Part shown: positions 5,368 to 20,372 of the stretch, in pieces
Numbering within the stretch: position 1 is the stretch's first letter
Layout of the letters: the number at the start of each line of letters is the position of its first letter
Virus record (IMG/VR): IMGVR_UViG_3300043172_000336
Coordinates: 1 to 58,377 of that record
Direction: 5' to 3' (one strand)
Length of the DNA stretch: 58,377 nucleotides
From: a virus
The notes under the pieces: generated by a model
What the model was told of the DNA's origin: nothing
Seen by the model: only the letters and a program-made list of their open reading frames with translations
Databases searched by the model: none
Translations under genes and position numbers: made by a program

Positions 5368-5389
5368 AAAAGCCCCAGCGAACTGGGGC
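5366..5389 (-). terminator. Leftward-facing intrinsic terminator (seven-pair stem, UUCG loop, six T)
   Basis: On the minus strand GCCCCAG-TTCG-CTGGGGC (5389-5372) is followed by TTTTTT (5371-5366), a textbook rho-independent terminator. On the plus strand the hairpin follows the stop of the 5155-5367 gene, but no T-tract follows it. It is therefore efficient only against leftward transcription, although every gene from 5457 to 12343 points right. It may block antisense read-through from the lone leftward gene at 12340-12816. Confidence 0.7.
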
Positions 5390-5456: not shown

Positions 5457-6173
5457 ATGACGAATATTGTTTGCTGGAAATGGGACGACCCCGGCTATGT
5501 ACGCGGGGACAAGCTCCTACCAGAATATTACAATATCCTTTACGCGATGCTGGAGCGGAATATTACACTCCCGGTCTGGGACCTTATCGTGCCCACTGAC
5601 GACACCACCGGCCTTAACCCAAATATCGTTGCGGTTCCGCAACCTTCTTCACTGTCTATACGATCGCCGCACGGTAATCGCTTCCCGGCCTGCTACCGCC
5701 GTCTATGGAACTTCTCGCGTGACGCGCAATACCTTTTCGGCAACCGATTCCTCTGTATAGATGTGGATGTCATTATTGTTCGCAACATCGACGCTATGCT
5801 CACTCGCCCTGAAAAATTCGTTGGGTGGACTGACCCGGACTTTAAGTGGGAGAAAATCGCGGGCGGTCTGTACTACATGCAGGCGGGCGCACATCCCGAA
5901 GTCTGGGATGACTTTGATCCGAAAACTTCACCGGCCATTGCAAAGGCCGACGGCAGACACGGTTCCGACCAGGGCTGGATCTCCCACAAACTTTATCCGC
6001 CCGATGCATCGTTCGGACGCAAAGACGGAGCCTGGTACGCGAAATGGATTCCACCGGGGCTTAATATAACGCCAGCGGAAGTGAAGATCGTCAGCACTCC
6101 AGGTTCAGAGAAACCGTGGCACGAGTCGCTCCAAACTAAACACCCTTGGATCAAGCAGCACTGGAGGCTCTGA
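5457..6173 (+). CDS. GT-A-fold glycosyltransferase with D-V-D motif, cassette copy A
   Basis: This 238-residue protein should transfer a sugar from a nucleotide sugar in the cytoplasm. The key evidence is F-P-A-C-Y-R-R-L-W-N-F-S at about 77-88 followed by F-L-C-I-D-V-D-V-I-I-V. Asp102 and Asp104 form the metal-binding DxD of GT-A enzymes. Further conserved-looking parts are G-G-L-Y-Y-M-Q-A-G and H-G-S-D-Q-G-W-I-S, the latter shared with the paralogue at 10230-10943. The pattern is GT8-like, but the exact CAZy family cannot be fixed by eye. The next gene starts on its stop codon (TGATG). Donor and acceptor are unknown. Confidence 0.75.
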   Translation: MTNIVCWKWDDPGYVRGDKLLPEYYNILYAMLERNITLPVWDLIVPTDDTTGLNPNIVAVPQPSSLSIRSPHGNRFPACYRRLWNFSRDAQYLFGNRFLCIDVDVIIVRNIDAMLTRPEKFVGWTDPDFKWEKIAGGLYYMQAGAHPEVWDDFDPKTSPAIAKADGRHGSDQGWISHKLYPPDASFGRKDGAWYAKWIPPGLNITPAEVKIVSTPGSEKPWHESLQTKHPWIKQHWRL

Positions 6174-6892
6174 TGGACGACGTTACTATTATCGTGCCGT
6201 ACTACCGAAACCCTCTGATGCTGGAGCAGCATGTTCGGTCCTGGGATCTGTTCCCATACAACTTCAAATTTATCGTCGTTGACGACGGCAGCCCTGAACC
6301 AGTAGAGTCGATTCCTAACTCACGGATTAAAGTTCTTCGCATAGAAGAAGACATCCCGTGGAACCGAGCTGGCGCTCGTAACCTTGGCGCACATGTTGCA
6401 GACACCGATTGGATAATCCACATGGATATCGATCATTTTATGCCGCTCAACACAGCCGTCGCCCTGGCCCAATTCACTGCGCTCTCGGACCACTGGTATC
6501 GGTTCGCCAGGTACCGGTTCGGCGCGGCGGATGCTACGCGCAAGAAAGATGATCTCCCTGACGACGTGATGTTTGGCAAGGTCAAGCCCCACATGGACTC
6601 CTACATGGTTGAGCGGAGTATGTATTGGGCGCTCGGTGGGTACGACGAGGACTACTCAGGCTCTCTGGGCGGCGGTGTGCCGTTCGTTAAGGAGCTGGAG
6701 AAGGCAGGCATCCGGCAGGACCTGGACGACCCCTACTACCTGTATGTGTACACTACGGACGCCATATCGGATGCTTCTGACTCATCGCTGAGTCGGGACA
6801 AGGCACGGTATAGCGAGATCCGCAAATCCAAGGCTGATGGAAAAGTACCTAAAAAGGAGCCGTTGCAATTCAAATGGAAGACCGTAGATTAA
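6173..6892 (+). CDS. GT2 family glycosyltransferase, copy A
   Basis: The 239 residues begin M-D-D-V-T-I-I-V-P-Y-Y-R-N-P. F-I-V-V-D-D-G-S-P-E-P at about 32-42 is the nucleotide-binding site, and M-D-I-D-H-F with Asp85 and Asp87 is the DxD metal site. A G-G-Y-D-E-D-Y-S-G block around 160 resembles the acceptor-side E-D segment of GT2/GalT-C enzymes. The start at 6173 (TGATG with the previous stop) is preferred over 6146. It is paralogous to 8347-9060. It probably works with its cassette neighbours on one glycan. Confidence 0.8.
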   Translation: MDDVTIIVPYYRNPLMLEQHVRSWDLFPYNFKFIVVDDGSPEPVESIPNSRIKVLRIEEDIPWNRAGARNLGAHVADTDWIIHMDIDHFMPLNTAVALAQFTALSDHWYRFARYRFGAADATRKKDDLPDDVMFGKVKPHMDSYMVERSMYWALGGYDEDYSGSLGGGVPFVKELEKAGIRQDLDDPYYLYVYTTDAISDASDSSLSRDKARYSEIRKSKADGKVPKKEPLQFKWKTVD

Positions 6893-8181
6893 CAACCTAT
6901 CCCAAAGTTTGGGATGAAGCGGAGACACTCAACCGGCTAATGCGGGGCGCTTCGCTTGCTCGCTTTGGTGACGGCGAGATCAAGCTCATGCTCGGCGGCG
7001 ACCAACTGCGTGAGCCAAAGAACAAGAGGCTCCAGGCTGAACTTCTCGCGGCGCTGAATATCAAACTTCCGAATTACATTATTGGTATCCCAACCATGAA
7101 CCCGGAGGGGTTGAAGTATGTCTTCTGGCATAAGTTCGAAGCACGGATTTTGAGTATTTTGAAGAAGCGCCCGGAATACCATTCTGCGTTTATTACTCGT
7201 CCTGACAGCGCCCCCTGGATAATGAATCGCACGTTTGTCGAGTGCTTTCGATCACTGTGGTTTAATAAAAGGGTTACACTCGTTGCAGAAGACAGCAAAG
7301 TAAAAATTCATAAGGTGATCCATGACTATGCTAAAAAACTTACTCTTGTACGCTGTCCGCATGATGAAGCGCACGCCTCCATTGATGTACTCGAAGATCG
7401 AGTTGTGGCTTCTGATCCTGAGATCGCAATTTTATCCGCCGGTCCTACTGCTACTTGTCTTGTTCCTCGTCTTGTTAGGCGTGGCATTCAGGCAATAGAT
7501 GTAGGGAGCATCGGCGGGCTGCTGCTTACTGTGTTCCCATTAAAAGATGTCGAAGTCTATGGTGAGGTCCAGACACTTGATCTTGTATTAGCCGGAGCCA
7601 GCATCGCCCGCTTCGGTGACGGCGAACTTAAGATCCTGCGAGGCCACGACATCGACTGCCAGCCGTGCCACAAACATTTACGCGGTGCGTTCCAGAAGAT
7701 CATCCTTAACCAGAACCCTGAGATCCTTGTCGGTATTCCACGCCCTGATAAGCTCAGCCCGAAGTACGAGAAGTGGATGGGTTTCATGGCCCACTACGAA
7801 GGGTGGCTCAGCCGGAAGCGTCCGTACGGATCTGCGTTTATTACTCGGGCTGATAGTGCCCCCTGGATCGATACCCCGGAGTACTGGGCCAAGCTGAAGC
7901 AGCTTTGGGAAGGGAAGCATGTTTGCCTGGTCTGGGGTGGAGAGACAGCTTCACTGGTCCCCGCTAAAGTGCGGGGTACAAAACAACTCGATAAGATTAA
8001 GTCGCGCCCCAATAATGCGTGGAAAGACAAAGATAATATCCTCAACCAGATTCGAAAGTTGCAGCCTCAACCGGAGGTCGTCCTCCTCTGCCTGGGGCCG
8101 ACAGCAACTGCACTCGTCCCGGACATCGCTGCCATGGGCATCCAGGCAGTTGACCTCGGCCACGTCGGGAGATGGATGTGA
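6874..8181 (+). CDS. Tandem-duplicated GT-D (DUF1792-type) glycosyltransferase
   Basis: The 435 residues are two copies of one domain of about 215 residues. Each has A-R-F-G-D-G-E (Asp33/Glu35 and Asp249/Glu251), the DxE metal motif of the GT-D fold. Each also has a central S-A-F-I-T-R-x-D-S-A-P-W block and a C-terminal G-P-T-A-T-x-L-V-P then G-I-Q-A-x-D-x-G block. Known single-domain GT-D enzymes add glucose during O-glycosylation of serine-rich streptococcal adhesins. Two active-site motifs in one chain could mean two transfers or an intramolecular dimer. The copies have diverged at protein level, so the duplication is not recent. It overlaps the preceding gene by 19 bases. Confidence 0.8.
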   Translation: MEDRRLTTYPKVWDEAETLNRLMRGASLARFGDGEIKLMLGGDQLREPKNKRLQAELLAALNIKLPNYIIGIPTMNPEGLKYVFWHKFEARILSILKKRPEYHSAFITRPDSAPWIMNRTFVECFRSLWFNKRVTLVAEDSKVKIHKVIHDYAKKLTLVRCPHDEAHASIDVLEDRVVASDPEIAILSAGPTATCLVPRLVRRGIQAIDVGSIGGLLLTVFPLKDVEVYGEVQTLDLVLAGASIARFGDGELKILRGHDIDCQPCHKHLRGAFQKIILNQNPEILVGIPRPDKLSPKYEKWMGFMAHYEGWLSRKRPYGSAFITRADSAPWIDTPEYWAKLKQLWEGKHVCLVWGGETASLVPAKVRGTKQLDKIKSRPNNAWKDKDNILNQIRKLQPQPEVVLLCLGPTATALVPDIAAMGIQAVDLGHVGRWM

Positions 8182-8354
8182 TCGCTGCCTTCAAAGGTGT
8201 GCCCGAAGCTGAGCGCCTGGTCGAGGCCGTTCGGAATTATAAAGGGGGTGATGACCACGAAAGAAGGTTTTTACGCGGCGTGGTTACCTTCTATAAAGCC
8301 CGCCAGCAGCGACCGCAGGTGGTGAGATTTCTGGAGTATGTGCTGTATGGATAA
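8172..8354 (+). CDS. Small hypothetical protein in the glycan cassette, 60 residues
   Basis: It overlaps the end of the GT-D gene. The ATG at 8172 has its GGGAG too close, so GTG at 8178 (six bases from GGGAG, forming GTGA with the previous stop) may be the real start, giving 58 residues. The protein is charged and helical (P-E-A-E-R-L-V-E-A-V-R-N-Y, then F-Y-K-A-R-Q-Q-R-P-Q-V-V-R-F-L-E-Y). No family is recognised. It may assist the flanking transferases, judged only from position. Confidence 0.5.
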   Translation: MDVIAAFKGVPEAERLVEAVRNYKGGDDHERRFLRGVVTFYKARQQRPQVVRFLEYVLYG

Positions 8355-9060
8355 TATTCAGCTCATCTATCCGTACTACGACAACCCCGGCATGTTCTAT
8401 GAACAGCAGTCCGTTTGGGCTGAGTGGGACCGCGAGCTTAAAGCTAAAGTCAAGATCATCATGGTCGATGACAGTAGCCCTAACGACGCCGCTGAAAAAT
8501 ATTACTGCTCCGTCCCCGGCCTGGACTTTGAACTATACCGGGTGCATAAAAATATCCCCTGGAATCAGAACGGCGCTCATAATCTCGCCATGCACGTAGC
8601 TGATGACGGCTGGTGTTTGATGACGGACATCGATCATGTGCTGTCGAACGAGAACCTGGCGAGGCTGTTAGCCATCGAGCCAGATGAAGGCATGTACTAC
8701 ACTCTTGGGCGGCGTCAGTTCGGCCATCTACGTGTGCCTTATAAACGGCACCCCAATTCCTGGCTCCTGACGAGGGAGATGTTTTTGACGAGCGGCGGGT
8801 ACGACGAAGACTTCTCTGGATACTACGGCTCCGACAGTGTTTTCAAAGTCGCGCTTTCTCATGTAGGAACGCACATCAAACTCGAACTGCCATATCTTAT
8901 TGTATATAACGAGGACGACATTCCAGATGCAAACACGCGAGAGTTCGAGCGTAAGCATTCGAAGTACTGGAGTTTGAATCACCCTCACCTGTTAGCAAAA
9001 CGCCGCCACTGGCGGATCGCCTTAAACCCCATTCGATTTCCCTGGGAGCGCATACTATGA
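8347..9060 (+). CDS. GT2 family glycosyltransferase, copy B
   Basis: The 237 residues align with copy A: M-D-N-I-Q-L-I-Y-P-Y-Y-D-N-P at the start, I-I-M-V-D-D-S-S-P-N-D for nucleotide binding, and M-T-D-I-D-H-V with Asp94 and Asp96 as the metal site. The start at 8347 is chosen because it matches the N-terminus of copy A; an in-frame ATG at 8338 adds three residues. N-I-P-W-N-Q-N-G-A-H-N-L parallels D-I-P-W-N-R-A-G-A-R-N-L in copy A. Sequence difference between copies suggests separate donors or linkages. Confidence 0.8.
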   Translation: MDNIQLIYPYYDNPGMFYEQQSVWAEWDRELKAKVKIIMVDDSSPNDAAEKYYCSVPGLDFELYRVHKNIPWNQNGAHNLAMHVADDGWCLMTDIDHVLSNENLARLLAIEPDEGMYYTLGRRQFGHLRVPYKRHPNSWLLTREMFLTSGGYDEDFSGYYGSDSVFKVALSHVGTHIKLELPYLIVYNEDDIPDANTREFERKHSKYWSLNHPHLLAKRRHWRIALNPIRFPWERIL

Positions 9061-9704
9061 AACTCAGTCACGGCTGGTACCACCACGATGTGATGAAAGG
9101 TCTCGGAACGTACATCCGTCGCTCGGGGGTTATTGACGCTGCTATGAAATATCTACCTCCTGAGCGCCGCCGCACAGTCCTCCAGGCAGGAGCGCACCAA
9201 GGAGTCTGGCCTGTCACTCTTGCGAAACTTTTTGAGCATGTGTTCGCGTGGGAGCCAATGCCAAGTAACTGGGAGTGCCTCGTCAAGAACACTGAAAAGA
9301 TCGACAACATTACGATTACGCTGGGCTGCCTCGGTGAGGAAGTAGGTGAAGTAATGCTTGAGGATAAGTCCAATAAAAATACGGGCGCATCTTTTATTAA
9401 CCCCAGGATAGGCACGCAGAGTGCGAAGCAGTTTCGTCTTGACGACTACAATTTCCCTACTCCTGTGGATGCGCTGTTCCTCGATGTTGAAGGGTACGAG
9501 CTTAAGATTTTATTGGGCGGCCACATCCTCATACACAACGACCGACCGGCACTGATTGTTGTCGAGGAAAACGGCTTACAGAAACGTCGATTCAGAATGC
9601 CTGAAAAGGCACTCGGTAAGTACCTGGAAACTTTTGGGTACCAGGCCGTGGAACGCTGGGAAGAAGATGTGATTTATATTCTGGAGGACAATCATTATGA
9701 TTGA
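9057..9704 (+). CDS. FkbM family methyltransferase
   Basis: This 215-residue S-adenosylmethionine-dependent methyltransferase has the nucleotide-binding glycine loop V-L-Q-A-G-A-H-Q-G-V-W at about 41-51. It also has W-E-P-M-P-S-N-W and the FkbM-type block D-A-L-F-L-D-V-E-G-Y-E-L-K-I-L-L-G-G at about 138-155. Family members O-methylate sugars or polyketides and often sit in surface-polysaccharide clusters. Overlaps on both sides (ATGA at 9057; 8 bases with the next gene) put it inside the cassette operon. Methylation of the assembled glycan is the likely role. Confidence 0.8.
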   Translation: MKLSHGWYHHDVMKGLGTYIRRSGVIDAAMKYLPPERRRTVLQAGAHQGVWPVTLAKLFEHVFAWEPMPSNWECLVKNTEKIDNITITLGCLGEEVGEVMLEDKSNKNTGASFINPRIGTQSAKQFRLDDYNFPTPVDALFLDVEGYELKILLGGHILIHNDRPALIVVEENGLQKRRFRMPEKALGKYLETFGYQAVERWEEDVIYILEDNHYD

Positions 9705-10233
9705 TGCAGTAGAGGAGGGGTATCTTATTTCCCCGGAACACAAGGCGCGGTACGTCGAGTACTACGCCGACCGTCCCTTCAAAGATCGACCTCATAAATG
9801 GCAGGAGAAGGTCGAAGCGATTGCGAAGAAGATCGAGGCGAAGTCAGTCCTCGATTACGGGTGCGGCGTAACTCAGGCTTTGTCTCGTTGGTCGTCCCTG
9901 CCTGTGACGGACTATGACCCCGTCATTCCCCACCTGGACTGCCCTAACTTTAATCACAAGTTCGATCTGGTTGTCTGCAATCATGTCTTAGAACATGTCG
10001 AACCTGAGCGGCTCCACGATATCCTAGCGCATATAAAGAGCCTGACTGGTAAGGTCGTCTACATCGCGCTCTCCACTAAGCTGTCTACAAAGAAGCTCCC
10101 TGACGGTACTGAGTGGCATCTGCTTGTCCACAATAAAAAATGGTGGAACCAGCAGTTCAAGAAACACTTCCGAGCCTTCCACATCTTCGAGTCAGATGAG
10201 CGGACCTTTGAAATAATATGGGTGAGAAAATGA
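9697..10233 (+). CDS. Class I SAM-dependent methyltransferase
   Basis: The 178 residues contain S-V-L-D-Y-G-C-G-V-T-Q-A-L at about 49-61 (motif I), D-Y-D-P after it, and F-D-L-V-V-C-N-H-V-L-E-H-V-E-P (motif II/III). This is the Methyltransf_11/23-like Rossmann pattern. GGAGG precedes the start. It is unlike the FkbM enzyme next to it, so two methylation steps or two substrates are likely. The substrate is unknown. It could also act on a lipid or nucleotide precursor. Confidence 0.75.
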   Translation: MIDAVEEGYLISPEHKARYVEYYADRPFKDRPHKWQEKVEAIAKKIEAKSVLDYGCGVTQALSRWSSLPVTDYDPVIPHLDCPNFNHKFDLVVCNHVLEHVEPERLHDILAHIKSLTGKVVYIALSTKLSTKKLPDGTEWHLLVHNKKWWNQQFKKHFRAFHIFESDERTFEIIWVRK

Positions 10234-10943
10234 TTAGAGTAGTATGTTGGTTATGGCCTCCAATGCGAAAATACCGAACGACGTTCACGTATGAACACGT
10301 CAACATCTTTCGCAACATGGTGGAGCGCCACCTGCACATGGAACACGAGGTTGTATGCATTACGAATATGGCAGATCGTATTGATCCTCGTGTCCGTATT
10401 GTTCCGCTGTGGGATGACTATGCTGATGTTGCTTCTCCTCATGGTGGTTTTTCTCCAGCGTGCTACCGAAGACTTAGAGCATTTTCCTCCGAGATGGAGA
10501 ATGTAATTGGCCCGCGTTTTGTTTCGATGGATCTCGATGTCGTCATTGTTGACGATATAACCCCCCTGCTGGACAGGGAAGATGACTTCGTTATTTGGGG
10601 GTCAGTGTTACGGGACACGCCATATAATGGCTCGATGTGGATGATGGACGCAGGCGCTCGCGAAGTGGTCTGGACTGATTTCAATCCGAGTATTTCGCCC
10701 ACACTGACGAGGAAAGCTGGCCTCCACGGATCTGACCAGGCGTGGATGAGCTACCGTCTCGGGGCACTTGAGAAGCGGTGGACACCTAAAGGTGACGGCG
10801 TGTATGCTTTCAGGTCGGATCTAAAACGTCGCCGGTATACGTTACCTGACGACACTAAGATTGTTTTCTTCCAGGGTGCCAACGACCCATGGGATGAATT
10901 TTCACGCAGGGTCGCGCCGTGGATCATGGAGCATTATAAATGA
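10230..10943 (+). CDS. GT-A-fold glycosyltransferase with D-L-D motif, cassette copy B
   Basis: This is a paralogue of the 5457-6173 enzyme. It shares F-S-P-A-C-Y-R-R-L-R-A-F-S, then F-V-S-M-D-L-D-V-V-I-V with Asp101 and Asp103, and H-G-S-D-Q-A-W-M-S. Residues M-M-D-A-G-A correspond to Y-M-Q-A-G-A in copy A. The start at 10230 forms ATGA with the previous stop; a frame from 10218 would add four residues. Its own stop overlaps the terminase start (ATGA), so the last cassette gene is directly coupled to packaging. Confidence 0.75.
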   Translation: MIRVVCWLWPPMRKYRTTFTYEHVNIFRNMVERHLHMEHEVVCITNMADRIDPRVRIVPLWDDYADVASPHGGFSPACYRRLRAFSSEMENVIGPRFVSMDLDVVIVDDITPLLDREDDFVIWGSVLRDTPYNGSMWMMDAGAREVVWTDFNPSISPTLTRKAGLHGSDQAWMSYRLGALEKRWTPKGDGVYAFRSDLKRRRYTLPDDTKIVFFQGANDPWDEFSRRVAPWIMEHYK

Positions 10944-12343
10944 GCGCATTGGTTAATTTCCGAACTCCCCCAACTGTTGGGAAGTTCATGCTCGATGACC
11001 ACTTCACTCGTCTCATCATGGGGCCGGTGGGGTCGGGCAAGTCAGCTGGATGCTTCATGGAACTACTGCGCCGGGCGCGACTGCAAGAACCAGACGGAGA
11101 AGGTGTACGCCGAACTCGCTTTGCGATCGTTCGAAATACTTTGCAACAGCTACGACAAACCTGCCTCGCGGATATCCAGCTGTGGCTGTCATCGGTGTGC
11201 AGCTATCGAGTTACTGACGCAACTGTACAAGTTCGCCTGGATCTAAAAGACGGCACCCGAGTCGAGTCTGACTGGATGCTGATCCCGCTCGATACAAAGG
11301 CTGATCAACAGCGCCTCCTGTCTCTCAACTTGACTGGTGCATGGGTGTCAGAGTTTCGTGAGATCGAACCCAGCCTCATCGATGCACTGTCAGGCCGCCT
11401 CGGTCGTTTCCCATCGAAGGCAATCGCTGAGCCTACCTGGTTCGGCATCATCGCTGAGTCAAATCCCCCTGACGAAGACTCAGTTTGGTACACCAAGATG
11501 GAAGTGGACCTACCTCCTAACTGGGTGCTGTTCAAGCAGCCCGGCGGACTAACCGAATTCGCGGAGAACGTCGATAACCTACCGAAGAATTATTACCAGA
11601 ACCTGGCCGACAATAACAACGCTGACTGGGTCGATATCCATGTTCACGCCAAGTACGGCAAGAGCCTCTCTGGTCAAGCTGTCTTTCGGTCCAGCTTCCG
11701 CCCCGGCTTTCATGTGGTCAAGGACCTGGAGCCGATCCCCGGTATGCCAATTATGATTGGGCAGGACTTTGGGCGAACCCCTGCTTCCCTGATGGGTCAG
11801 ATCGACAACCGTGGCCGACTCTGCATTTTTCACGAGTGTACATCTGAAGACATGGGTATCGAGCAGTTCTGCACAGCCAAACTCCGACCAATGATGTTTG
11901 AAAATTACGCCGGTAAAGAATCATTCATGATCGGTGATCCGTCGGGAAAATTCAAAGGTCAGATTACGGAGGAGTCTCCGTTCGATGCACTCAAGCGATT
12001 AGGGTTTAAGATTTACGCAGCGCCGACCAACGATGTGGAGCCACGACTGCGAGCTGTTGAACAACTCTTTCTGCACCAGGTTGATGGAGGACCGATGCTG
12101 CTCATCCACAGCGAGAACTGTCCTCTGTTGATTCAGGCGTTAAAGTTTTGGTATCGCTACCGCCGTAAAACTACAGGTATGTTAGAGGACCGTCCCGAGA
12201 AGACTCACCCTTGGTCTGATCTTGCTGATTGCCTTCAGTACATGTGCCTTGCCGTGAATGGCAATTACATCGGGAATATGATTGCTCGTCAGCGGCCACG
12301 GAAGAACAAGAAGCCTGCGATGACCTCCGCCGCCTGGAACTAA
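10940..12343 (+). CDS. terL: Terminase large subunit
   Basis: This is the 467-residue motor and nuclease that packages DNA into the prohead. The Walker A motif G-P-V-G-S-G-K-S spans residues 28-35 (Lys34). A strand then A-W-V-S-E-F-R-E-I is the likely Walker B region. The RNase H-like nuclease begins with I-G-Q-D-F-G-R-T-P (Asp276), continues with I-G-D-P-S-G-K, and ends with W-S-D-L-A-D-C-L-Q-Y. The length is typical. The ATG overlaps the preceding glycosyltransferase stop. The 3' end overlaps the convergent gene by four bases. Confidence 0.92.
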   Translation: MSALVNFRTPPTVGKFMLDDHFTRLIMGPVGSGKSAGCFMELLRRARLQEPDGEGVRRTRFAIVRNTLQQLRQTCLADIQLWLSSVCSYRVTDATVQVRLDLKDGTRVESDWMLIPLDTKADQQRLLSLNLTGAWVSEFREIEPSLIDALSGRLGRFPSKAIAEPTWFGIIAESNPPDEDSVWYTKMEVDLPPNWVLFKQPGGLTEFAENVDNLPKNYYQNLADNNNADWVDIHVHAKYGKSLSGQAVFRSSFRPGFHVVKDLEPIPGMPIMIGQDFGRTPASLMGQIDNRGRLCIFHECTSEDMGIEQFCTAKLRPMMFENYAGKESFMIGDPSGKFKGQITEESPFDALKRLGFKIYAAPTNDVEPRLRAVEQLFLHQVDGGPMLLIHSENCPLLIQALKFWYRYRRKTTGMLEDRPEKTHPWSDLADCLQYMCLAVNGNYIGNMIARQRPRKNKKPAMTSAAWN

Positions 12344-12816
12344 GCTGCTTCCGGTAACGCAGTAGCTTCGATTGCCACCGTGCGAATCTCTTTCTCTCCG
12401 GTATCGATGTGAATGTTGATGGTAGCTGCGTTTGCTCCAAGTCCTGCGTTTGCTGCATCCCGCTGGTTACGACCAGCCAGGACCGCCATCTGCTTAATAC
12501 TGTCGATGCGTTGCTGCGATGGTTTCTCGATGTCATGAGCAATCTCGTATAAAATGTGAATGGAATCTTCGAGGATAAGTTCGGCTTTCTTTGTGATTCG
12601 CTTCCCCGAGTTTAGGTCCCCGTGCCAGTCTCTTAGCGCCTCCTTTAGCATGTTGCGGAAGACCCGACTGATTTTGAGGGTTTCCCACTGGTCCTGGGAG
12701 ATCTCGTACTTTTCTCTGATGCCCTCCGCATCGGCAAGCCCAGCGGCTAATTCAGCGCATATGGTCGCGCTCAGATTGTGGATACCCAGGGGCTTAATGG
12801 TTGCTATTTCATTCAT
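12340..12816 (-). CDS. Probable terminase small subunit, encoded on the opposite strand
   Basis: The 158-residue protein starts with a helical DNA-binding-like region, L-A-D-A-E-G-I-R-E-K-Y-E-I-S-Q-D-Q-W (about 27-44). It then has K-R-I-T-K-K-A-E-L-I-L-E-D-S-I-H-I-L-Y and I-D-S-I-K-Q-M-A-V-L-A-G, a pattern remembered from phage small terminase-like proteins. The C-terminal part T-I-N-I-H-I-D-T-G is beta-rich. Its position between large terminase and portal supports this. The odd part is orientation: it is the only leftward gene between 2909 and 47234, divergent from the portal with 41 bases between. A regulatory role is the alternative. Confidence 0.5.
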   Translation of the reverse strand: MNEIATIKPLGIHNLSATICAELAAGLADAEGIREKYEISQDQWETLKISRVFRNMLKEALRDWHGDLNSGKRITKKAELILEDSIHILYEIAHDIEKPSQQRIDSIKQMAVLAGRNQRDAANAGLGANAATINIHIDTGEKEIRTVAIEATALPEAA

Positions 12817-12857
12817 ATTCTTTCGCCAGTTGACAACCCCTATAGCATACTCGCAAA

Positions 12858-14999
12858 ATGGGGGCTATGGCTATCTCTAGTGGCATCCCAGTTCCGGTCG
12901 TCCCTGGCGGCGGTCTCATTCGAATCGTCTCGAACCAACAGCTAGTTGAGCAGGAAAAGTCTGCTGAACGAGAGGCGCAAAATCGAGTTGAGGATCGTCC
13001 GATGGGAATGCTTGCCCAGCATATCAGGGCACGCATGACCGACATGCGGAACTTCCGCAACGCTGAAGGAATTAGCGAACGATTGCTTTCTGCTCTGCGT
13101 ACTTATAAAGGGATGTACAACACGGCTAAGCTGACCGAAATTAAAAAGTTCGGGGGCAGTGAAGTTTATGCACGTATCACCGCAACCAAATGTCGAGCTG
13201 CGACTGCCCTACTCCGTGATGTCTTTCTCGGTAGTGAGCGACCTTGGTCTGTAGACGCCACCCCTGACCCCGAAGTTCCGTACGACATCAATGAACAAAT
13301 TCAGAATCTGGTCGCCACCGAAGTTGCGGTATTAGTTGCGACAGGTGAAGAGATTGACGACACAGCAATCGCAGATCGAGTCGGCACTCTCCGTAAAAGC
13401 GCCGTCCGCGCTGCAAAGAAACAGGCGGAGCTGGAAGCAGATAAAGCTCAAGCGATGATGGATGACATGCTCATAGAGGGAGGCTTCTATGATGCGTTCG
13501 CCGAGTTCCTGATCGACCTTCCGATCTTCCCTTACGCTGTTATGAAAGGACCGGTCGTCCGCAACGCTACACAAGTCAAGTGGGTAAATGGCACAGCGGA
13601 AACCGAATACACCCCGAAGATGTTTTGGCAACGTGTGTCTCCGTTTGATCTGTATTGGTCACCCGGTGCAGGCGAGGTGAAGCACGCAGAGTTTATCGAA
13701 CGGATTCGGGTATCCCGTGCTGAACTACAATCCTTGAAGGGAGTGGCTGGCTACAATGATGAACAAATTGATCTCGTCCTGGCTCAGTTTTACAACTCCG
13801 GTCTCCACGAGTGGTGGGATACAATCGACACAGAACGGGCTGAGCTGGAAGACCGAGAACGATGGGCACGTACAGCAACCACTCTTATCGATACCGCAGA
13901 ATACACCGGTTCCGTTTCGGGTACCCTCTTACGCGAATGGGGAATGTCAGAGCAAGATATTCCCGATCCGCTTGTCGAGTACCACGTCACTGCATGGATG
14001 ATCGACCGCTTTGTTATTAAGGTCCAGATCACACCCCAGCCTGACGAACGACCCCCCTACTTCATCAGCTGCTTTGAAAAGATCCCTGGCGCATTGATCG
14101 GGTATGCCCTACCAGACTTGCTGGAGGATGTACAGCAGATTTGTAACGCAGCTGTCAGATCCCTGGTGAATAACCTCTCTATTGCATCTGGTCCGCAGGT
14201 AATCATCAACGATGAAGTCCTGCAGCCTGGCGAGGACGACAGCCTGTATCCGTGGAAACGATGGCATGTCTCGTATGACCCGATGGTTTCCAGTGCTTCT
14301 ACCAGGCCGATTGATTTCTTCCAACCCAAATCAAATGCGACTGAGTTGCTCGGCGTCTATGAGAAGTGGGCGGTGATGGCTGACGAGATCTCTTCTCTGC
14401 CTCGATACATGACAGGTAGTGAGAAGGTCGGTGGCGCGGGCCGCACGGCATCTGGTCTCGCAATGCTCATGTCTAATGCTGCCAAGACGCTACAGAATGT
14501 CGCCGCACAAATTGACCGCGATGTTATACATCCGATTTTGCACGGTCTGTTCAATATGATTATGATCACGCAGCCGGGTGTGTTACGCGGCGATGAACAG
14601 ATCCAGGTGAAGGGTACCAAGCACGCCGTGAAACGAGAACAGGATCGTATGCGACAGCTTGAATTCCTGCAGCTGACAGCGAACCCGATCGACATGGGTA
14701 TTATCGGACCGGAAGGCAGATCACAAGTTCTTCGAAGTGTCGCCGGAAATCTGGGGTTAGATCATGAAAAAATTCTTCCAGACGAAATGGAACTGCAAGA
14801 CCGGATGGCTCAGATGGCTCAGGCCGAGCAACAGCAAGCTCAAACTGAGGCAGCGGGTAAAGGTCAGCCTAGTGCTGCACAAACTCCGGCCCCTGCTCAG
14901 GCTCGTGCTGGACCAGAACAAGTCCGACAAGACACAGGAGTTGAAGGACAATTCACGAACCAGGCGACAGGTCGCCCAGGAATGAGAGCCGGAGGCTAG
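12858..14999 (+). CDS. Portal protein
   Basis: The 713 residues match large podovirus-type portals, which form the dodecameric DNA gateway at one head vertex. Supporting segments are I-R-A-R-M-T-D-M-R-N-F-R-N-A near the start and K-C-R-A-A-T-A-L-L-R-D-V-F-L. A long central part has F-W-Q-R-V-S-P-F-D-L-Y-W-S-P-G-A. The glutamine/alanine-rich tail (Q-A-E-Q-Q-Q-A-Q-T-E-A-A) is probably disordered. No clear Shine-Dalgarno precedes the ATG at 12858; ATG 12867 (M-A-I-S-S-G) is an alternative start. The short upstream region has TTGACA at 12830-12835 but no properly spaced -10. Confidence 0.85.
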   Translation: MGAMAISSGIPVPVVPGGGLIRIVSNQQLVEQEKSAEREAQNRVEDRPMGMLAQHIRARMTDMRNFRNAEGISERLLSALRTYKGMYNTAKLTEIKKFGGSEVYARITATKCRAATALLRDVFLGSERPWSVDATPDPEVPYDINEQIQNLVATEVAVLVATGEEIDDTAIADRVGTLRKSAVRAAKKQAELEADKAQAMMDDMLIEGGFYDAFAEFLIDLPIFPYAVMKGPVVRNATQVKWVNGTAETEYTPKMFWQRVSPFDLYWSPGAGEVKHAEFIERIRVSRAELQSLKGVAGYNDEQIDLVLAQFYNSGLHEWWDTIDTERAELEDRERWARTATTLIDTAEYTGSVSGTLLREWGMSEQDIPDPLVEYHVTAWMIDRFVIKVQITPQPDERPPYFISCFEKIPGALIGYALPDLLEDVQQICNAAVRSLVNNLSIASGPQVIINDEVLQPGEDDSLYPWKRWHVSYDPMVSSASTRPIDFFQPKSNATELLGVYEKWAVMADEISSLPRYMTGSEKVGGAGRTASGLAMLMSNAAKTLQNVAAQIDRDVIHPILHGLFNMIMITQPGVLRGDEQIQVKGTKHAVKREQDRMRQLEFLQLTANPIDMGIIGPEGRSQVLRSVAGNLGLDHEKILPDEMELQDRMAQMAQAEQQQAQTEAAGKGQPSAAQTPAPAQARAGPEQVRQDTGVEGQFTNQATGRPGMRAGG

Positions 15000-15001
15000 T
15001 C

Positions 15002-15316
15002 ATGAAACCCCGAACACACAAGTATGCAAATCAAGGTCCCCAGCTGATGAAAGATGGCGGGCGTGCTGGTAAGCAAACCAAACAACCCCCGAAGGATGAG
15101 AAAGGCCAGGGGACGAAACCAAAGGAAGGCGGCGAAGGACTGATGTCCAGATGGAAAGGCCGCTCGGCAAAAGCGTTGGAAGAAATGGGTATGGCTGATG
15201 GAGGCCGTGTTATGAAGAAGCCAGAGAAGGGTAAGAAACCAGTACGGATCACGACGAAGAACCCACCGGGGGGACCACAAACCCCAGGGGCTAAGAAGAA
15301 AAAGAAGAAGAAGTAG
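15002..15316 (+). CDS. Lysine-rich disordered virion-type protein with D-G-G motifs
   Basis: The 104 residues are dominated by K, G, P and Q and end in seven lysines. Two motifs, M-K-D-G-G-R and M-A-D-G-G-R-V, match A-D-G-G motifs in the internal virion proteins at 33054 and 34085. The charge suggests nucleic-acid contact, perhaps packaged with DNA. It starts three bases after the portal stop. Apart from the tag, no family is recognised. The poly-A/G coding tract at the end is slippage-prone, so the exact C-terminus deserves caution. Confidence 0.55.
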   Translation: MKPRTHKYANQGPQLMKDGGRAGKQTKQPPKDEKGQGTKPKEGGEGLMSRWKGRSAKALEEMGMADGGRVMKKPEKGKKPVRITTKNPPGGPQTPGAKKKKKKK

Positions 15317-15381
15317 CATTTATTAGCGAAAGTGGTAAGATTCAACAGACTTTACAGCATATGTTACCAGGAGAAATGGTC

Positions 15382-15675
15382 ATGGATGTAAGCGGAAACG
15401 GTGGTGGTGGCGAAGGCCATTCCCCATATGGGAAGCAAAGTGAGTTCCTTGGCGATACCAAAGGTAACCGTGATCTCGAAACGGATCGCACGCACCCGAG
15501 CGGTGGAACCGGCGAACCTCACGCGGCGTTCTCGAAGCAGAGCGAGTTCCTTGGTGACACCAAGGGCAACAGTGATCTGGCAACAGATCGTTCAAGCGGT
15601 GTTCCTTCTGGTTTCGGTGGCGGTCGGCATAAAGCTGGCGGCAGCGGTAAAGACCAGAGCGGACCGGGGCAGTAA
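15382..15675 (+). CDS. Gly-rich repeat protein, 97 residues
   Basis: Two copies of the unit K-Q-S-E-F-L-G-D-T-K-G-N-x-D-L-x-T-D-R occur in the first two-thirds, separated by a G/P/H-rich linker. The tail is G-G-S-G-K-D-Q-S-G-P-G-Q. AGGAG lies eight bases upstream of the ATG at 15382; earlier in-frame ATGs at 15361 and 15376 are badly spaced. It is likely disordered outside the repeats. It sits among small head-region genes, so a head-associated or scaffold-accessory role is plausible but unproven. Confidence 0.5.
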   Translation: MDVSGNGGGGEGHSPYGKQSEFLGDTKGNRDLETDRTHPSGGTGEPHAAFSKQSEFLGDTKGNSDLATDRSSGVPSGFGGGRHKAGGSGKDQSGPGQ

Positions 15676-15677
15676 TC

Positions 15678-15911
15678 GTGAAGGGCCTGACCTACTCCAA
15701 AGGCAAGTGCGTAGGAGAGCTTCGGCTTTCTGGCGCAGCTGGCTTTGGGAGTGTAAGTGTCCCTGGCGGATCTGCTCCCCCTGATCGCCGAATCATGTCG
15801 GAGACCGGTGCTTCGAGAGATATGTCGAAAGCCGGTGTCAAAGTTCAGGAACCCGAAGGCGGGTTCGATGACGACAACGAGCGGTTGCGAATGCTCGGCT
15901 TACTACCTTGA
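15678..15911 (+). CDS. Hypothetical head-region protein, GTG start
   Basis: The 77 residues begin K-G-L-T-Y-S-K-G-K-C after a GTG start, with a G-rich stretch upstream. The end F-D-D-D-N-E-R-L-R-M-L-G-L-L-P is acidic then hydrophobic. There are no known motifs. It overlaps the next gene by four bases, which supports translation of both. Small proteins like this between portal and scaffold are common in podovirus-like genomes, with no function assigned. Confidence 0.5.
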   Translation: MKGLTYSKGKCVGELRLSGAAGFGSVSVPGGSAPPDRRIMSETGASRDMSKAGVKVQEPEGGFDDDNERLRMLGLLP

Positions 15912-16159
15912 AGCTGACGCATCGCGCAGCTCAGGCTTTTACGAACCTCCGGGGTAACCCGGATTTTGGCGACTTGTTAATGTGGATTGCGGAGATTCAA
16001 GCCAAGGAGACTAGGACTTGTATAGAAGCTGAAGGAGTCATCCTGCATAGAGCGCAGGGGGCCGCTAAAGCTCTACATCAAATCAGAGTGGCATACGATG
16101 AATCTCCAGAAACAGTCCTTAAACTTAGAGCTAAAGAACGTGAGGTACCAAGACAATGA
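15908..16159 (+). CDS. Small conserved-looking head-region protein, TTG start
   Basis: The 83 residues include A-A-Q-A-F-T-N-L-R-G-N-P-D-F-G-D-L-L-M-W-I, a pattern recalled from small proteins beside portals in many tailed phages, followed by a helical K-L-R-A-K-E-R-E region. The TTG start forms TTGA with the previous stop; no ATG fits. Its stop overlaps the scaffold start (ATGA). The function is unknown, though an accessory role in head assembly is the contextual guess. Confidence 0.55.
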   Translation: MKLTHRAAQAFTNLRGNPDFGDLLMWIAEIQAKETRTCIEAEGVILHRAQGAAKALHQIRVAYDESPETVLKLRAKEREVPRQ

Positions 16160-17253
16160 ATCAGCCCGCTAGTCACGAAGCAAGTGCGCTCCCACAAGCC
16201 GTGCAAAAACAAGTCGATGAAGCAAACCGCATAATCGATGAACTGAACAAGCCGGTTGAGCCGGTCGTGCCCTTTGCTGAGGGCGATGCGCCAGTCGCGC
16301 CGGTTGAGCCAGTCGCGCCGGTTGAGCCAGTTGAGCCTAACCTGCTTGCGGAACCCACCCCTGAACCTACTCCCCCGGCTGAAGACAAGCCGTGGGAACA
16401 CAAATACAATGTCCTGCAAGGGAAGTACAACGCGGAAGTGCCGCGTCTTACCCGGCAGGTTCAAGAGCAAGACGGACAATTGTCTGATATACGTCAACAG
16501 CTGACGAATACGCAGACGATTCTCGCATCGCTGAATCAGCGTACCGCTGATCCCGAAGGAGATGTTGGGGCACCTGCAACACCCCCCCAACGCCTGGTTC
16601 AAGACGATGAAATTACGGCGTTCGGAGCCGACCTCCATGACTTTATCAAGCGCACTGCTTTAGAAGCGGTTGCGCCGAAGGTCGAGGCAGGCTCACATTC
16701 GCTGGATCAGCGACTCTCAAAGGTCGAGTCTATTGCAGAAAATGTGCAAGCTCAGGCTACGAGAGTGGAGGAAATAGGACTCTTCGATCTTCTCACCGCC
16801 GATGTTCCCGACTGGGAAGTGCAGAACAAGGACCCCTTGTTCCTGCAGTGGCTTGAGGAAGTGGACCCGTATACCGGGGCACAACGAGGACAGCTCCTTA
16901 CGCAGGCGTTCGCACGTCACGACGGCCCTCGCGTCGTAGCGTTATTTCAGGGCTTCAAGAACGAAAACGCTGCTGTAACCCCCCAGCCTACGATCCCTGC
17001 TCCAGCAGAGGTAACTCCTCTGCCGGAACCACAGAGTCTCGAAGGATTGGTAGCACCAGGCACTCCTAAGTCTGGTATTGATAGTGGCGCTCCCAATGAT
17101 GCCGAAAAACGGGTTTGGACCCAGCCTATGATCTCTCAACTATATGCTCAAATAAATGAGTACACCAAAAAGGGTAAGTCAGCTCCCGACGAGCTGAAAG
17201 CTCTTGAGGCAGACCTCATCCGTGGGCAGAGTGAAGGCCGGGTACAAGCATAA
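16156..17253 (+). CDS. Probable scaffolding protein
   Basis: The 365 residues lie immediately before the coat gene, the usual place for scaffold. The chain has a Pro/Glu/Val-rich N-terminal linker (V-A-P-V-E-P repeats, about 40-75). A central coiled coil follows (R-L-T-R-Q-V-Q-E-Q-D-G-Q-L-S-D-I-R), then a second helical zone and a charged C-terminal helix (E-K-R-V-W-T-Q-P-M-I-S-Q-L-Y-A-Q). Scaffolds share this elongated, helical, low-hydrophobicity design and often contact the coat through a C-terminal helix. The assignment is from architecture and position, not sequence motif. Confidence 0.7.
   Translation: MNQPASHEASALPQAVQKQVDEANRIIDELNKPVEPVVPFAEGDAPVAPVEPVAPVEPVEPNLLAEPTPEPTPPAEDKPWEHKYNVLQGKYNAEVPRLTRQVQEQDGQLSDIRQQLTNTQTILASLNQRTADPEGDVGAPATPPQRLVQDDEITAFGADLHDFIKRTALEAVAPKVEAGSHSLDQRLSKVESIAENVQAQATRVEEIGLFDLLTADVPDWEVQNKDPLFLQWLEEVDPYTGAQRGQLLTQAFARHDGPRVVALFQGFKNENAAVTPQPTIPAPAEVTPLPEPQSLEGLVAPGTPKSGIDSGAPNDAEKRVWTQPMISQLYAQINEYTKKGKSAPDELKALEADLIRGQSEGRVQA
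16291..16335 (+). repeat. Two perfect 18-bp tandem repeats plus a partial copy inside the scaffold gene
   Basis: CCAGTCGCGCCGGTTGAG occurs at 16291-16308 and 16309-16326, followed by the partial copy CCAGTTGAG. It encodes P-V-A-P-V-E repeats in the linker of the scaffold-like protein. The unit is in frame, so copy-number change would lengthen or shorten the linker without a frameshift. Confidence 0.8.
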
Positions 17254-17282
17254 TTTTCGACTCTTATGGAGTGTAAATTGTC

Positions 17283-18275
17283 ATGTCCTATCCTGTTGCC
17301 ACTACGGCCTTTAGAGGCCCTACGCAATCACCGGCTTATACCGGTAACTTCATTCCAGAAATCTGGAGCGGCAAGCTCGTAGAGAAATTCTACGCGGCCA
17401 CCGTTCTGGGTGCCATTGCGAACACTGACTACGAAGGTGAGATTCGCAACCAAGGCGATCTGGTCAACATACGAACCCGCCCGACGATCACGATTTCGGA
17501 TTACGAGGTGAACCAGGATTTAACCGTCCAACGTCCCTCCAGTACTCCGACTTCCCTGTTGATCGACAAGGGTAAGTACTTCAACCTCGCACTCGATGAC
17601 GTGATGGAAATCCAGTCCGATATCGATCTCCTGTCCACCTGGGCGGAAGACGCTTCGGAGCAGATGAAAATCGCAGTCGATACCGACGTACTTGGGGCGC
17701 TATCTTCGGTGACCGATACCGACATCAGCGACCTGAACAAGAGCGATAACTCCGGTGCCATATCCGGCGACATCAATCTTGGTGATTACGGTGGTCCGGT
17801 GTATGTCAATGCTGCCTCGCAAGGTACGGGTATCGGTAACGATAACTCGAACGACCGAGCCATCATCGACTTCATCACCGACATGGGTCAAGTACTCGAT
17901 GAGCAGAACATCCCGGAATCGGGACGGTGGCTGATCATACCCGCCTGGCTCGCTGCCAGGATCAAACGATCCGAATTGAAGGATGCTTCGCTTTCCGGCG
18001 ACGGCACCTCGATTCTGCGTAACGGTCGTCTGGGCATGATCGATCGGTTCACTATCTATCTGTCCAACCTCCTGCTCCCGCTGGGTGGTTATGCAGATGA
18101 GTGGCCGCTTCTGTTCGGCACCAATGCCGCTCTGACCTTCGCCAGTCAGTTCACCAAGATGGAAACGATTCGTTCAGAACGATCGTTCTCCAACCTCTTG
18201 CGTGGTCTGCAGATTTACGGCTATAAAGTCGTGAATGGCGTTGCGATGGGTCGCGCTGTTGTTGCTAAGGGCTAA
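17283..18275 (+). CDS. Major capsid (coat) protein, P22 gp5-like family
   Basis: The 330 residues show the pattern of P22-type coat proteins: I-P-E-I-W-S-G-K-L-V-E-K-F near residue 24, then G-D-L-V-N-I-R-T-R-P-T. After that come L-L-I-D-K-G-K-Y-F-N-L-A-L-D-D-V and a late R-S-E-R-S-F-S-N-L-L-R-G-L-Q-I-Y-G-Y. Such proteins adopt the HK97 fold and assemble the icosahedral shell around scaffold. The ATG at 17283 has GGAG ten bases upstream. A long hairpin follows the gene. No cleavable pro-domain or fused protease is visible. Confidence 0.85.
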   Translation: MSYPVATTAFRGPTQSPAYTGNFIPEIWSGKLVEKFYAATVLGAIANTDYEGEIRNQGDLVNIRTRPTITISDYEVNQDLTVQRPSSTPTSLLIDKGKYFNLALDDVMEIQSDIDLLSTWAEDASEQMKIAVDTDVLGALSSVTDTDISDLNKSDNSGAISGDINLGDYGGPVYVNAASQGTGIGNDNSNDRAIIDFITDMGQVLDEQNIPESGRWLIIPAWLAARIKRSELKDASLSGDGTSILRNGRLGMIDRFTIYLSNLLLPLGGYADEWPLLFGTNAALTFASQFTKMETIRSERSFSNLLRGLQIYGYKVVNGVAMGRAVVAKG

Positions 18276-18283
18276 TCCCTGAT

Positions 18284-18320
18284 CCTCCAGGGGGTATAAT
18301 ATTTTTATACCCTCTGGGGG
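18284..18320 (+). terminator. Long hairpin after the coat gene, possible terminator or mRNA end-stabiliser
   Basis: CCTCCAGGGGGTATA (18284-18298) pairs with TATACCCTCTGGGGG (18306-18320). It forms a 15-pair stem with two G-U pairs and a seven-base loop. GTTTCTT follows, a weak U-tract. It lies between the coat gene and the first connector gene, where partial termination would lower expression of downstream genes relative to coat. Processing or mRNA protection is an alternative. Confidence 0.6.
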
Positions 18321-18338
18321 GTTTCTTAGGAGTGCCCC

Positions 18339-18719
18339 GTGGCGAGCTACCAGAAGATCATCACTGATGCGCGTGAGTTGCTACAGGATACGAATGCTGA
18401 AACCGGTCTACGGTTTACGGACTCCTTCCTAGTCAATCAGCTCAACCGTGGCATAGAAGAGTTGGGGCGCATCCGCCCTGACGCTTTTAGTTCTGTGTTC
18501 GACAAAAACAGTTTGAATATCCCGGAGGTCATCGCCGAAGGGGACCCCACCGATGAACAGGTCTTATGGACTGAGGAGACTCTCTTTGAGGGGCAGTTCT
18601 TCACTCCATTAGTCTTTTACGTCACCGGATCGTCTGAAGTCACCGACGATGAATTCACCATGGACGGGCGAGCTGGACTATTACTAGGTCAGTTTCGTCA
18701 AACCGTACTGGGGATATAG
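18339..18719 (+). CDS. Head-tail connector-type protein (DUF6682-like)
   Basis: The 126 residues begin A-S-Y-Q-K-I-I-T-D-A-R-E-L-L-Q-D-T-N-A after a GTG start with AGGAG seven bases upstream. F-T-D-S-F-L-V-N-Q-L-N-R-G-I-E-E-L-G-R-I-R-P-D-A-F follows. This N-terminal pattern is recalled from a family found just after coat genes in podovirus-like phages (DUF6682), thought to be neck or adaptor proteins. No enzymatic motif is seen. The role as first connector ring is inferred from position. Confidence 0.6.
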   Translation: MASYQKIITDARELLQDTNAETGLRFTDSFLVNQLNRGIEELGRIRPDAFSSVFDKNSLNIPEVIAEGDPTDEQVLWTEETLFEGQFFTPLVFYVTGSSEVTDDEFTMDGRAGLLLGQFRQTVLGI

Positions 18720-18721
18720 TC

Positions 18722-19447
18722 ATGGTTGATAGTGTTTTCATCGAAGGCTCTGGCTGCGAGTGTGATGTCACGCTCGACACCTGGTTACGAGATTCACTCT
18801 CATACCTCCCTGGCTCTATCCGCTCCGTGGCAGCACGAGAACTCGTCCTTGCTGCTCGTGAGTTCTTCGAACGGTCGTACGCCTGGCAGGGTCTGATCGA
18901 GGACCAGGACGCCAAGGCTGGCCGCAAGCAATATTGGCTCTCGCCATGGGATGAGTACGCCAATGTCGTCGGAGTGATCGGCGTGAGCCTCAAGGGTAAC
19001 CCTATAACACCTGTTCCAGTACGCCCGGCCCGAGTCAATACGACCTCCAGTGGCACCGCCGCTGCGACCAGTGACCGTCCGAGTTTCTATTACGCTGCCC
19101 CAGCTCCTGATGCGATCGAGCTATTCCCCGATCTGCAGTCGGATGAGGATGATGCTCTGACCTTCCATGTCGCTCTGACCCCGAAAACTACAGTCGAGCA
19201 TCTGCCGCGTGTCGCAGAGATTAAATACTATGATGCGATCCTGGACGGGTTCCTGGCTCGTATGTATATGCACCCAAGCAAGCCTTATACCTCGCTGCAG
19301 ATGGCCCAGTTCAAACGCAAATCTTTTAACCACTGGATTGGCAAGTACATGGGTCAAGCGAAGCAAGGATATGTCGGCGCTCAGAACTGGAGCTTCCCAT
19401 CTGAATGGGGAGTTCGTCGGCTCGGGCAGGCGGCCCGTGGTGGATAA
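18722..19447 (+). CDS. Tail connector / neck protein (putative)
   Basis: The 241 residues have an N-terminal helical region (A-A-R-E-L-V-L-A-A-R-E-F-F-E-R-S-Y-A-W). A beta-rich middle (Y-A-N-V-V-G-V-I-G-V-S-L-K-G) and a helical C-terminus with Y-Y-D-A-I-L-D-G-F-L-A-R-M-Y-M follow. This resembles gatekeeper or tail-adaptor proteins that follow the first connector in podoviruses. It starts three bases after the previous stop, and its own stop overlaps the next start (TAATG). No catalytic residues are suggested. Confidence 0.55.
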   Translation: MVDSVFIEGSGCECDVTLDTWLRDSLSYLPGSIRSVAARELVLAAREFFERSYAWQGLIEDQDAKAGRKQYWLSPWDEYANVVGVIGVSLKGNPITPVPVRPARVNTTSSGTAAATSDRPSFYYAAPAPDAIELFPDLQSDEDDALTFHVALTPKTTVEHLPRVAEIKYYDAILDGFLARMYMHPSKPYTSLQMAQFKRKSFNHWIGKYMGQAKQGYVGAQNWSFPSEWGVRRLGQAARGG

Positions 19448-20061
19448 TGGGCGCTCAACTTTACCCCAGTGCGCTTGGATCAATACAAGATGGAGTGTTT
19501 GATTGGCTTGCACACGAGATTGTAATCGCATTGATGGCACCTGCATTTGTCCCTGATTTCTCACAGGTGTACGCAGACTCTCTCCCCGATGGTGACATCA
19601 TTCGTGTCAGTGACCCGATGACAAATCGGACCTATGTGGATAATATCGCCGGGGGTGAACCGGCTCCTTTCCTGCAGTTATTTGACACGCGGGCTATCTC
19701 GCATGTGGTCATCTATCAAGACACAGGTGACATCGCGTACTCCCCACTCATTGCATACTATGATGAGGATAATATCCTTGGCGCACCGCTGGTATCTGAG
19801 GGGCTTGACCAGTTTGTGTACGGTACTTTCCCGCCTGGCGGGTACTGGCAAGTCACGACAATCCCTCTGACTGGTGAAATTAACAGCTATCTTCTGTCTG
19901 GAAACACCGCTTTGGCTGAGCTGGAGGGCGGGGATGTCATTATTCTTCCCGAACTTCTCCTGAGTGGTAGACTAACCGTCACTACACAGGCGATTTGTGC
20001 GACTCCAGATGAGCCAAACGATTGCTGCGAGCCAACGATTCGGAGTTCGATATGCGAATAG
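19447..20061 (+). CDS. Hypothetical tail-region structural protein, 204 residues
   Basis: The start at 19447 is set by TAATG overlap with the previous stop; a frame opening at 19405 is less likely. The sequence is beta-rich and acidic (D-G-D-I-I-R-V-S-D-P-M, V-V-I-Y-Q-D-T-G-D-I-A-Y). It has three cysteines near the C-terminus, including C-C in N-D-C-C-E-P-T. There is no signal or membrane segment. It belongs to the continuous connector-to-fibre string and probably forms part of the tail, but no family is recognised. Confidence 0.55.
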   Translation: MGAQLYPSALGSIQDGVFDWLAHEIVIALMAPAFVPDFSQVYADSLPDGDIIRVSDPMTNRTYVDNIAGGEPAPFLQLFDTRAISHVVIYQDTGDIAYSPLIAYYDEDNILGAPLVSEGLDQFVYGTFPPGGYWQVTTIPLTGEINSYLLSGNTALAELEGGDVIILPELLLSGRLTVTTQAICATPDEPNDCCEPTIRSSICE

Positions 20062-20372
20062 GTGCCTACACAATTAAAGGACGGATCGTTCAGCAGCCAG
20101 GTGAGAACCTGCGTCGTCTGATTGACTATGATCGATGGCTTGAGGAAGGAGAGGTTATAACTTCTGTTGCAACGTCGATCGATAATGCAACCAGTCCGCC
20201 TCTGGCAGTGACGAACATCGTCATTGATCCTGACGGCAATAGGATAGCGTACTACATCAGTGGTGGAGCCGATGGTGAGGACTACACCGTAACATTTTCT
20301 GTAACTACTAGCGTTAACCAGACGCGAGAGGACGAACTTTTAGTTGGCGTCCGGGAGGTACTTCGTGGGTGA
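20052..20372 (+). CDS. Small structural protein upstream of the tail-collar fibre
   Basis: The 106 residues from ATG 20052 form a beta-sandwich-like sequence: R-L-I-D-Y-D-R-W-L-E-E-G-E-V-I, then V-T-N-I-V-I-D-P-D-G-N-R-I-A-Y-Y-I-S-G and D-Y-T-V-T-F-S-V-T-T-S. This pattern recurs in small phage tail or fibre proteins. It overlaps genes on both sides. A longer frame from 20022 is not supported. A role in fibre attachment is inferred. Confidence 0.6.
   Translation: MRIGAYTIKGRIVQQPGENLRRLIDYDRWLEEGEVITSVATSIDNATSPPLAVTNIVIDPDGNRIAYYISGGADGEDYTVTFSVTTSVNQTREDELLVGVREVLRG

Follow-up and report, generated by a model that had tools for sequence, protein, structure and literature searches.

Virion glycans have been described mainly from mycobacteriophages in the literature that we examined, and the closest precedents for the locus analysed here are the glycosyltransferase (GT) insertions of mycobacteriophage clusters J and O, together with mycobacteriophage virion glycosylation. 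Cluster J phages (Omega, Thibault) carry 8-10 genes, including several GTs and SAM methyltransferases, between the major capsid and head-tail connector genes (PMC3706429). In Corndog (cluster O), an O-methyltransferase and GTs lie in the virion operon between portal and protease; the enzymes were detected in infected cells, not in virions, and capsid modification was proposed (PMC4351075). Virion glycans were demonstrated in mycobacteriophages by Freeman et al. (2023; doi 10.1016/j.chom.2023.05.028), as cited in PMC11256854 and PMC12619734; by these citing accounts, GTs encoded by Che8-type phages decorate virion proteins, the glycans lying on the C-termini of the major capsid protein (MCP) and tail-tube protein. 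Another point of reference is Fap1/SRRP glycan assembly, where GT-D and GT-A enzymes build a chain on protein and the dGT1 domain (4pfx/4phr) adds Glc to the Fap1 protein-linked glycan (PMC5063993).

Here we have analysed a 58,377-bp IMG/VR virus record, IMGVR_UViG_3300043172_000336 (the window), from an environmental phage, in which seven of eight cassette genes directly ahead of the large terminase gene, terL, encode sugar-transferring or methylating enzymes. As in cluster J, a multi-gene set of GTs and methyltransferases is placed with virion or packaging genes, although the cluster J insertion also holds a putative kinase and a metallopeptidase. Cluster O differs in its portal/protease site and in homology, which was undetectable at E 1e-5; indeed, tblastn with GTA2, GT2a, GT2b and GT-D at this threshold matched no Mycobacterium phage. 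As in the Corndog/Che8-type cassettes, GT genes lie inside or directly beside virion and packaging genes, and the decoration of virion proteins proposed here parallels that described for Che8-type phages, although their C-terminal signature was not seen here. The window shares GT-D and GT-A enzymes with Fap1/SRRP assembly, but no GtfA/GtfB-type initiator or SRRP substrate was recognised in it. By analogy, the cassette would work like the mycobacteriophage systems and is a candidate member of their kind.

Results

Gene string and enzyme families

Eight same-strand ORFs, each overlapping the next, span 5457-10943 as the earlier note had described, and the last enters terL (10940..12343, plus strand; phrog_2, 1.9e-22) by 4 nt. 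The same note read the string as an unbroken run of ATGA/TGATG overlaps, which is correct for overlap itself (8/8 junctions) and too strict for its form: GTA1/GT2a is a TGATG junction, GT2b/FkbM and GTA2/TerL are ATGA, MT/GTA2 becomes ATGA with the GTA2 start at 10230 that homologues favour, and the remaining cassette junctions are overlaps of 8-19 nt. Because overlap is common throughout this phage, at 30/48 of the window's other co-directional junctions versus 8/8 in the cassette (Fisher p about 0.03), it is weak evidence for a shared pathway. A second IMG/VR contig, L001, matches 5719-20932 (15.2 kb) at 99.94% identity, with 9 mismatches, all past 18800; an assembly artefact is therefore unlikely, given the same arrangement in both. 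A near-identity search among phages returned no match to the window. The promoter/terminator scan gave chance-level results only, and a hairpin at 5372-5389 has a T-tail on the minus strand only.

The family assignments made at first reading, GT2, two-domain GT-D and two different methyltransferases, were all borne out by Pfam, which places the methyltransferases in the FkbM and class-I families. All cassette genes are on the plus strand. GT2a (6173..6892) matches PF10111 (6.7e-11) and PF00535 (1.5e-10), and GT2b (8338..9060, start possibly 8347) matches PF10111 (2.6e-6). The 435-aa tandem GT-D enzyme (6874..8181) matches PF08759 over two stretches (2e-47). Its N half (about 6874-7518) and C half (about 7519-8181) match PDB 4pfx (dGT1/GalT1) at 4e-10 and 1e-20, with 4pfx/4phr as solved homologues, and both halves carry the RFGDGE motif, in keeping with the PF08759/dGT1 type. 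The N half has a DLGH motif without its His; since the same His is missing from its type-A relatives (see below), this is a subfamily trait rather than decay. The two methyltransferases belong to the FkbM family (9057..9704; PF05050 2.9e-9, phrog_8156 3.2e-23) and to the class-I SAM type (MT, Methyltransf_23, 9697..10233; PF13489 3.8e-12, phrog_24759 4.4e-20).

GTA1 (5457..6173), a GT8-like GT-A glycosyltransferase with a DXD motif (DVD), and GTA2 (10218..10943, start probably 10230) had no Pfam match, their sole family match being phrog_1962 (5.6e-5 and 4.4e-10, respectively). For GTA2, the structure-based assignment that the earlier note had called for yielded a GT8-like fold: the AlphaFold model (pLDDT 94) has LgtC (7e-9), glycogenin (9e-9) and also GlyE among its closest Foldseek matches, and D105/D107 of the DXD motif are invariant among homologues, as expected of a GT8-type enzyme. 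A sequence search of the PDB with GTA2 gave no significant match. The cassette proteins show no clear transmembrane segment.

The remaining gene, sm60 (8172..8354), encodes a 60-aa protein, characterised from homologues and an AlphaFold model, which is too small for any of these enzyme classes. It probably is not a glycan enzyme, because the model is a three-helix fold and the family also occurs just ahead of terL in phages that lack the cassette (L007, L013, L014, L046, L048).

Phage group and variation at the cassette site

The nearest isolated relatives by TerL are Rhizobium phages (best 46% identity), with BcepC6B and others more distant. A podovirus-like particle is suggested by the portal and head proteins, which have matches in the head-tail adaptor and major head families of PHROG, taken together with an internal virion protein and a protein resembling DarB. 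The next two genes after that of the DarB-like antirestriction protein (2840 aa, 36148-44670) encode a DNA-transfer protein (44670-46268), then a ClpP-like protease (46268-46954).

To the left, a ribbon-helix-helix gene (5003..5158, plus strand; PF01402 1.2e-4) is the conserved neighbour of the cassette position in relatives with and without a cassette. Across 48 IMG/VR TerL relatives the site between this gene and terL is variable: many carry a glycan cassette ending in GTA2, others nothing. Related cassettes vary, some adding UDP-glucose dehydrogenase, UDP-sugar dehydratase or sulfotransferase genes. GTA2 alone is retained in every cassette-bearing relative, and it can be called the constant member because L032 keeps it nearly alone, with just one unassigned neighbour. 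In a gene-content profile of 12 longer genomes, GTA and GT2 occurred in 7/7 with a cassette and 0/5 without, GT-D in 5/7 and 0/5, and no other gene tracked the cassette. GTA2 of L092 and L101 clusters with the siphovirus type, suggesting exchange. In L092, L096, L101 and L107, a gene of 544-697 aa lies between GTA2 and terL (tail-fibre-like in L092).

Elsewhere in the window, the replication arm encodes a sulfotransferase (48609-49181, minus strand; PF03567 6.5e-7, phrog_3347) that is possibly part of the glycan chemistry; another sulfotransferase (PF17784) lies inside the related cassette of L035. Possible nucleotide-pool genes comprise one with a PF18909 dATP/dGTP diphosphohydrolase N-terminal domain (47304-48361, minus strand) and an adjoining DUF4406 gene; the PF18909 gene is also found in cassette-less relatives and has no link to the cassette.

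Coupling to terL is derived

That the cassette is coupled to the terminase holds for this phage; as a founding feature of the system, coupling is ruled out by terL orientation on the TerL tree. Phages with a co-directional terL form a single clade (support 98) and orientation requires one change, while the other window-type rows, along with the outgroup of Rhizobium phages, have an inverted terL that meets GTA2 tail-to-tail. The cassette is thus older than its coupling, which the tree resolves as the lineage-specific result of one terL inversion. Between terL and portal, the window has an opposite-strand TerS-like gene, also seen in nearly all relatives examined; it is a probable small terminase (12340..12816, minus strand) that matches phrog_36773 (no annotated function, 2.4e-10) and is named from its position beside TerL in relatives. 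Its orientation looks like a remnant from the time when terL and terS were both inverted. Cassette presence and absence changes three times among classified rows of the TerL tree, a lower bound because many rows are unclassified, a 51-aa marker having fallen under the ORF cut-off.

A mosaic of two cassette types

Paralogue identities within the cassette are low (GTA1/GTA2 32%, GT2a/GT2b 30%, GT-D halves 34%). The nesting of these pairs had suggested growth through duplication, a proposal that the trees and AU tests overturn: none of the three pairs are sisters (p 1e-11 for GTA1/GTA2, 4e-58 for GT2a/GT2b and about 2.7e-5 for the GT-D halves), ruling out local duplication as their source. Rather, GT2a and the GT-D N half cluster with L003, L018, L031, L037, L092 and L101 (support 99 for the GT2a clade), relatives with a type-A order of GTA1...GT2a-GTD...GTA2; GTA1, likewise a type-A member, groups with L003, L018, L031, L101 and the prophages L126 and L127. 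GT2b and the GT-D C half cluster with L002 and L035, and GT2b also with L004, L008 and L017 (support 99); here the type-B order is GTD...GT2b-FkbM-GTA2 or a variant, FkbM being a type-B member too. Of all the loci in the trees, the window is the only one to combine the two GT2 types.

By this phylogeny the cassette is a mosaic, with GTA1-GT2a-GTD(N) from one type and GTD(C)-GT2b-FkbM from another. As its halves group with different cassette types, the tandem GT-D is better explained as a junction of two cassettes than as an internal duplication. While the mixed origin follows from the trees, we infer the route: a type-A GTA1-GT2a-GTD and a type-B GTD-sm60-GT2b-FkbM would have recombined at their GT-D genes, leaving a tandem GT-D enzyme at the splice point and two parallel GT8/GT2/GT-D sets. 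More than one exchange may have taken place, since the MT gene ahead of GTA2 is similar to its counterpart in L033 and L037, both type-A relatives.

Related cassettes among the head genes of other phages

On the counts from a GTA2 profile search the family is almost phage-exclusive: the profile hit 214 viral contigs, of which 80 were kept, as against 4 loci across 84,980 species genomes, and of these 4 at least L126 and L127 sit among phage head genes. Outside the window's own type, the gene order of most carriers is that of a siphovirus, the head module being HK97-like or of another kind. After near-duplicate removal, 35 of 42 loci had a same-strand head or tail gene within 1.5 kb downstream of GTA2 (head-completion/head-closure, connector or tail-terminator), which is a pattern among still-related loci, not 35 independent events; no opposite-strand structural gene was detected near GTA2 in the 42. 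Portal, protease or MCP lies upstream in most loci whose contig extends far enough. The search for similar gene orders advised in the earlier note thus recovered related cassettes, GTA2 last, among head genes. In unrelated siphoviruses, the same enzyme families have MCP/portal on one side and head-completion genes on the other, and this placement is the stronger evidence for the late, virion-related context that the note had suggested.

The statement that no described phage system has this exact gene set also finds support: within the phage collection, clear homologues of GTA2, GT-D and both GT2s occurred together only in the near-identical records of Tetraselmis viridis virus S20 (NC_020840) and SI1, the only isolate-level full-set example found. 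Like the window, S20 encodes GT-D, GT2, FkbM, MT and GTA2 homologues (31-44% identity) with GTA2 last. Its genome, however, is siphovirus-type with an HK97/D3-like head, its cassette precedes head closure instead of terL, and it adds sialyltransferase/MptE-like genes. There GTA2 and the head-closure gene share 4 nt, and the cassette brackets a gene that reads, from its sequence (no Pfam match), as a head connector.

Discussion

We consider the locus of this podovirus-like phage a late-expressed oligosaccharide cassette, probably for glycosylating one of its virion proteins, late timing being suggested by gene position. The most likely product is a methylated sugar chain carried by the virion, because the same enzyme families sit among head genes of unrelated phages. 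Soluble GTs and methyltransferases would be made late and, ahead of assembly or while it proceeds, equip a head protein with a methylated oligosaccharide: GTA2 may set the first or core sugar on the virion protein, the GT-D and GT2 enzymes, judging by their families, would lengthen the chain, and FkbM and the second methyltransferase would O-methylate it. As to the acceptor, a Ser/Thr-rich C-terminal extension, which is not known to be required, was absent from the MCPs of cassette-bearing phages in a 25-row alignment, leaving no Ser/Thr tail to recommend the MCP C-terminus. No dedicated acceptor emerged from the 12 longer genomes, since no non-GT gene tracks the cassette there. The tail-fibre ORF (21755-24070) was rejected as a cassette-tracking acceptor, as only its first ~100 residues match, a generic tail-fibre N-terminus; its weak BNR and F5/8 type C domain matches make it a possible glycan-binding receptor protein.

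Soluble GT8/GT2 enzymes of the LgtC and WaaJ type are able to modify the LPS core without membrane helices, and both GT8 (LgtC-like) and GT2 are typical LPS-core enzymes. Soluble enzymes would suffice at the inner leaflet, and GTA2 adjoins tail-fibre genes in L092 and L114, all of which would suit a late change of the host surface (LPS core or another inner-leaflet glycolipid) that blocks re-adsorption to debris or superinfection. We nonetheless regard this as unlikely: the record has no match to GtrA (PF04138) or integrase (PF00589) of the kind expected for GtrABC serotype conversion, the cassette lies among head-to-tail joining genes rather than early or lysogeny genes, and the GT-D precedent is protein glycan extension (PMC5063993).

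More doubtful still is a takeover function on a host protein or metabolite, with the head-gene position a merely tolerated insertion site. Cassette content is variable, the cassette is absent from part of a derived clade and structural operons do have insertion hotspots; against this, the window-type group has GTA2 tracking TerL, and the head-region position is found again in phages whose head modules differ. Glycosylation and methylation of phage DNA as a defence against restriction seems very improbable. T4 DNA glucosyltransferases have a GT-B fold, unlike the GT8-like GTA2, and the cassette's position is with head genes. No thymidylate-synthase/hydroxymethylase homologue (PF00303) was matched in the record, nor were hydroxymethyl-pyrimidine synthesis genes found in Pfam/PHROGs scans of the replication module, even though phage glycosyltransferases often act on DNA (PMC12619734).

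Returning to decoration of the virion, our data indicate a GT8/GT-D/GT2 cassette that is phage-exclusive, stands apart from the mycobacteriophage systems and turns up repeatedly at the head genes of many environmental phages. A bolder and more tentative extension is that it constitutes a protein O-glycosylation system outside mycobacteriophages, common to podovirus-like and siphovirus lineages, which could decorate heads with methylated, sometimes sulfated or uronic-acid-bearing glycans; its cassettes would evolve by GT-D splicing, and this phage might build two chains or one longer hybrid chain. Specific genes are now available for testing virion glycosylation outside mycobacteriophages, and the GT-D splice suggests that the glycan repertoire of a phage could change in a single recombination step.
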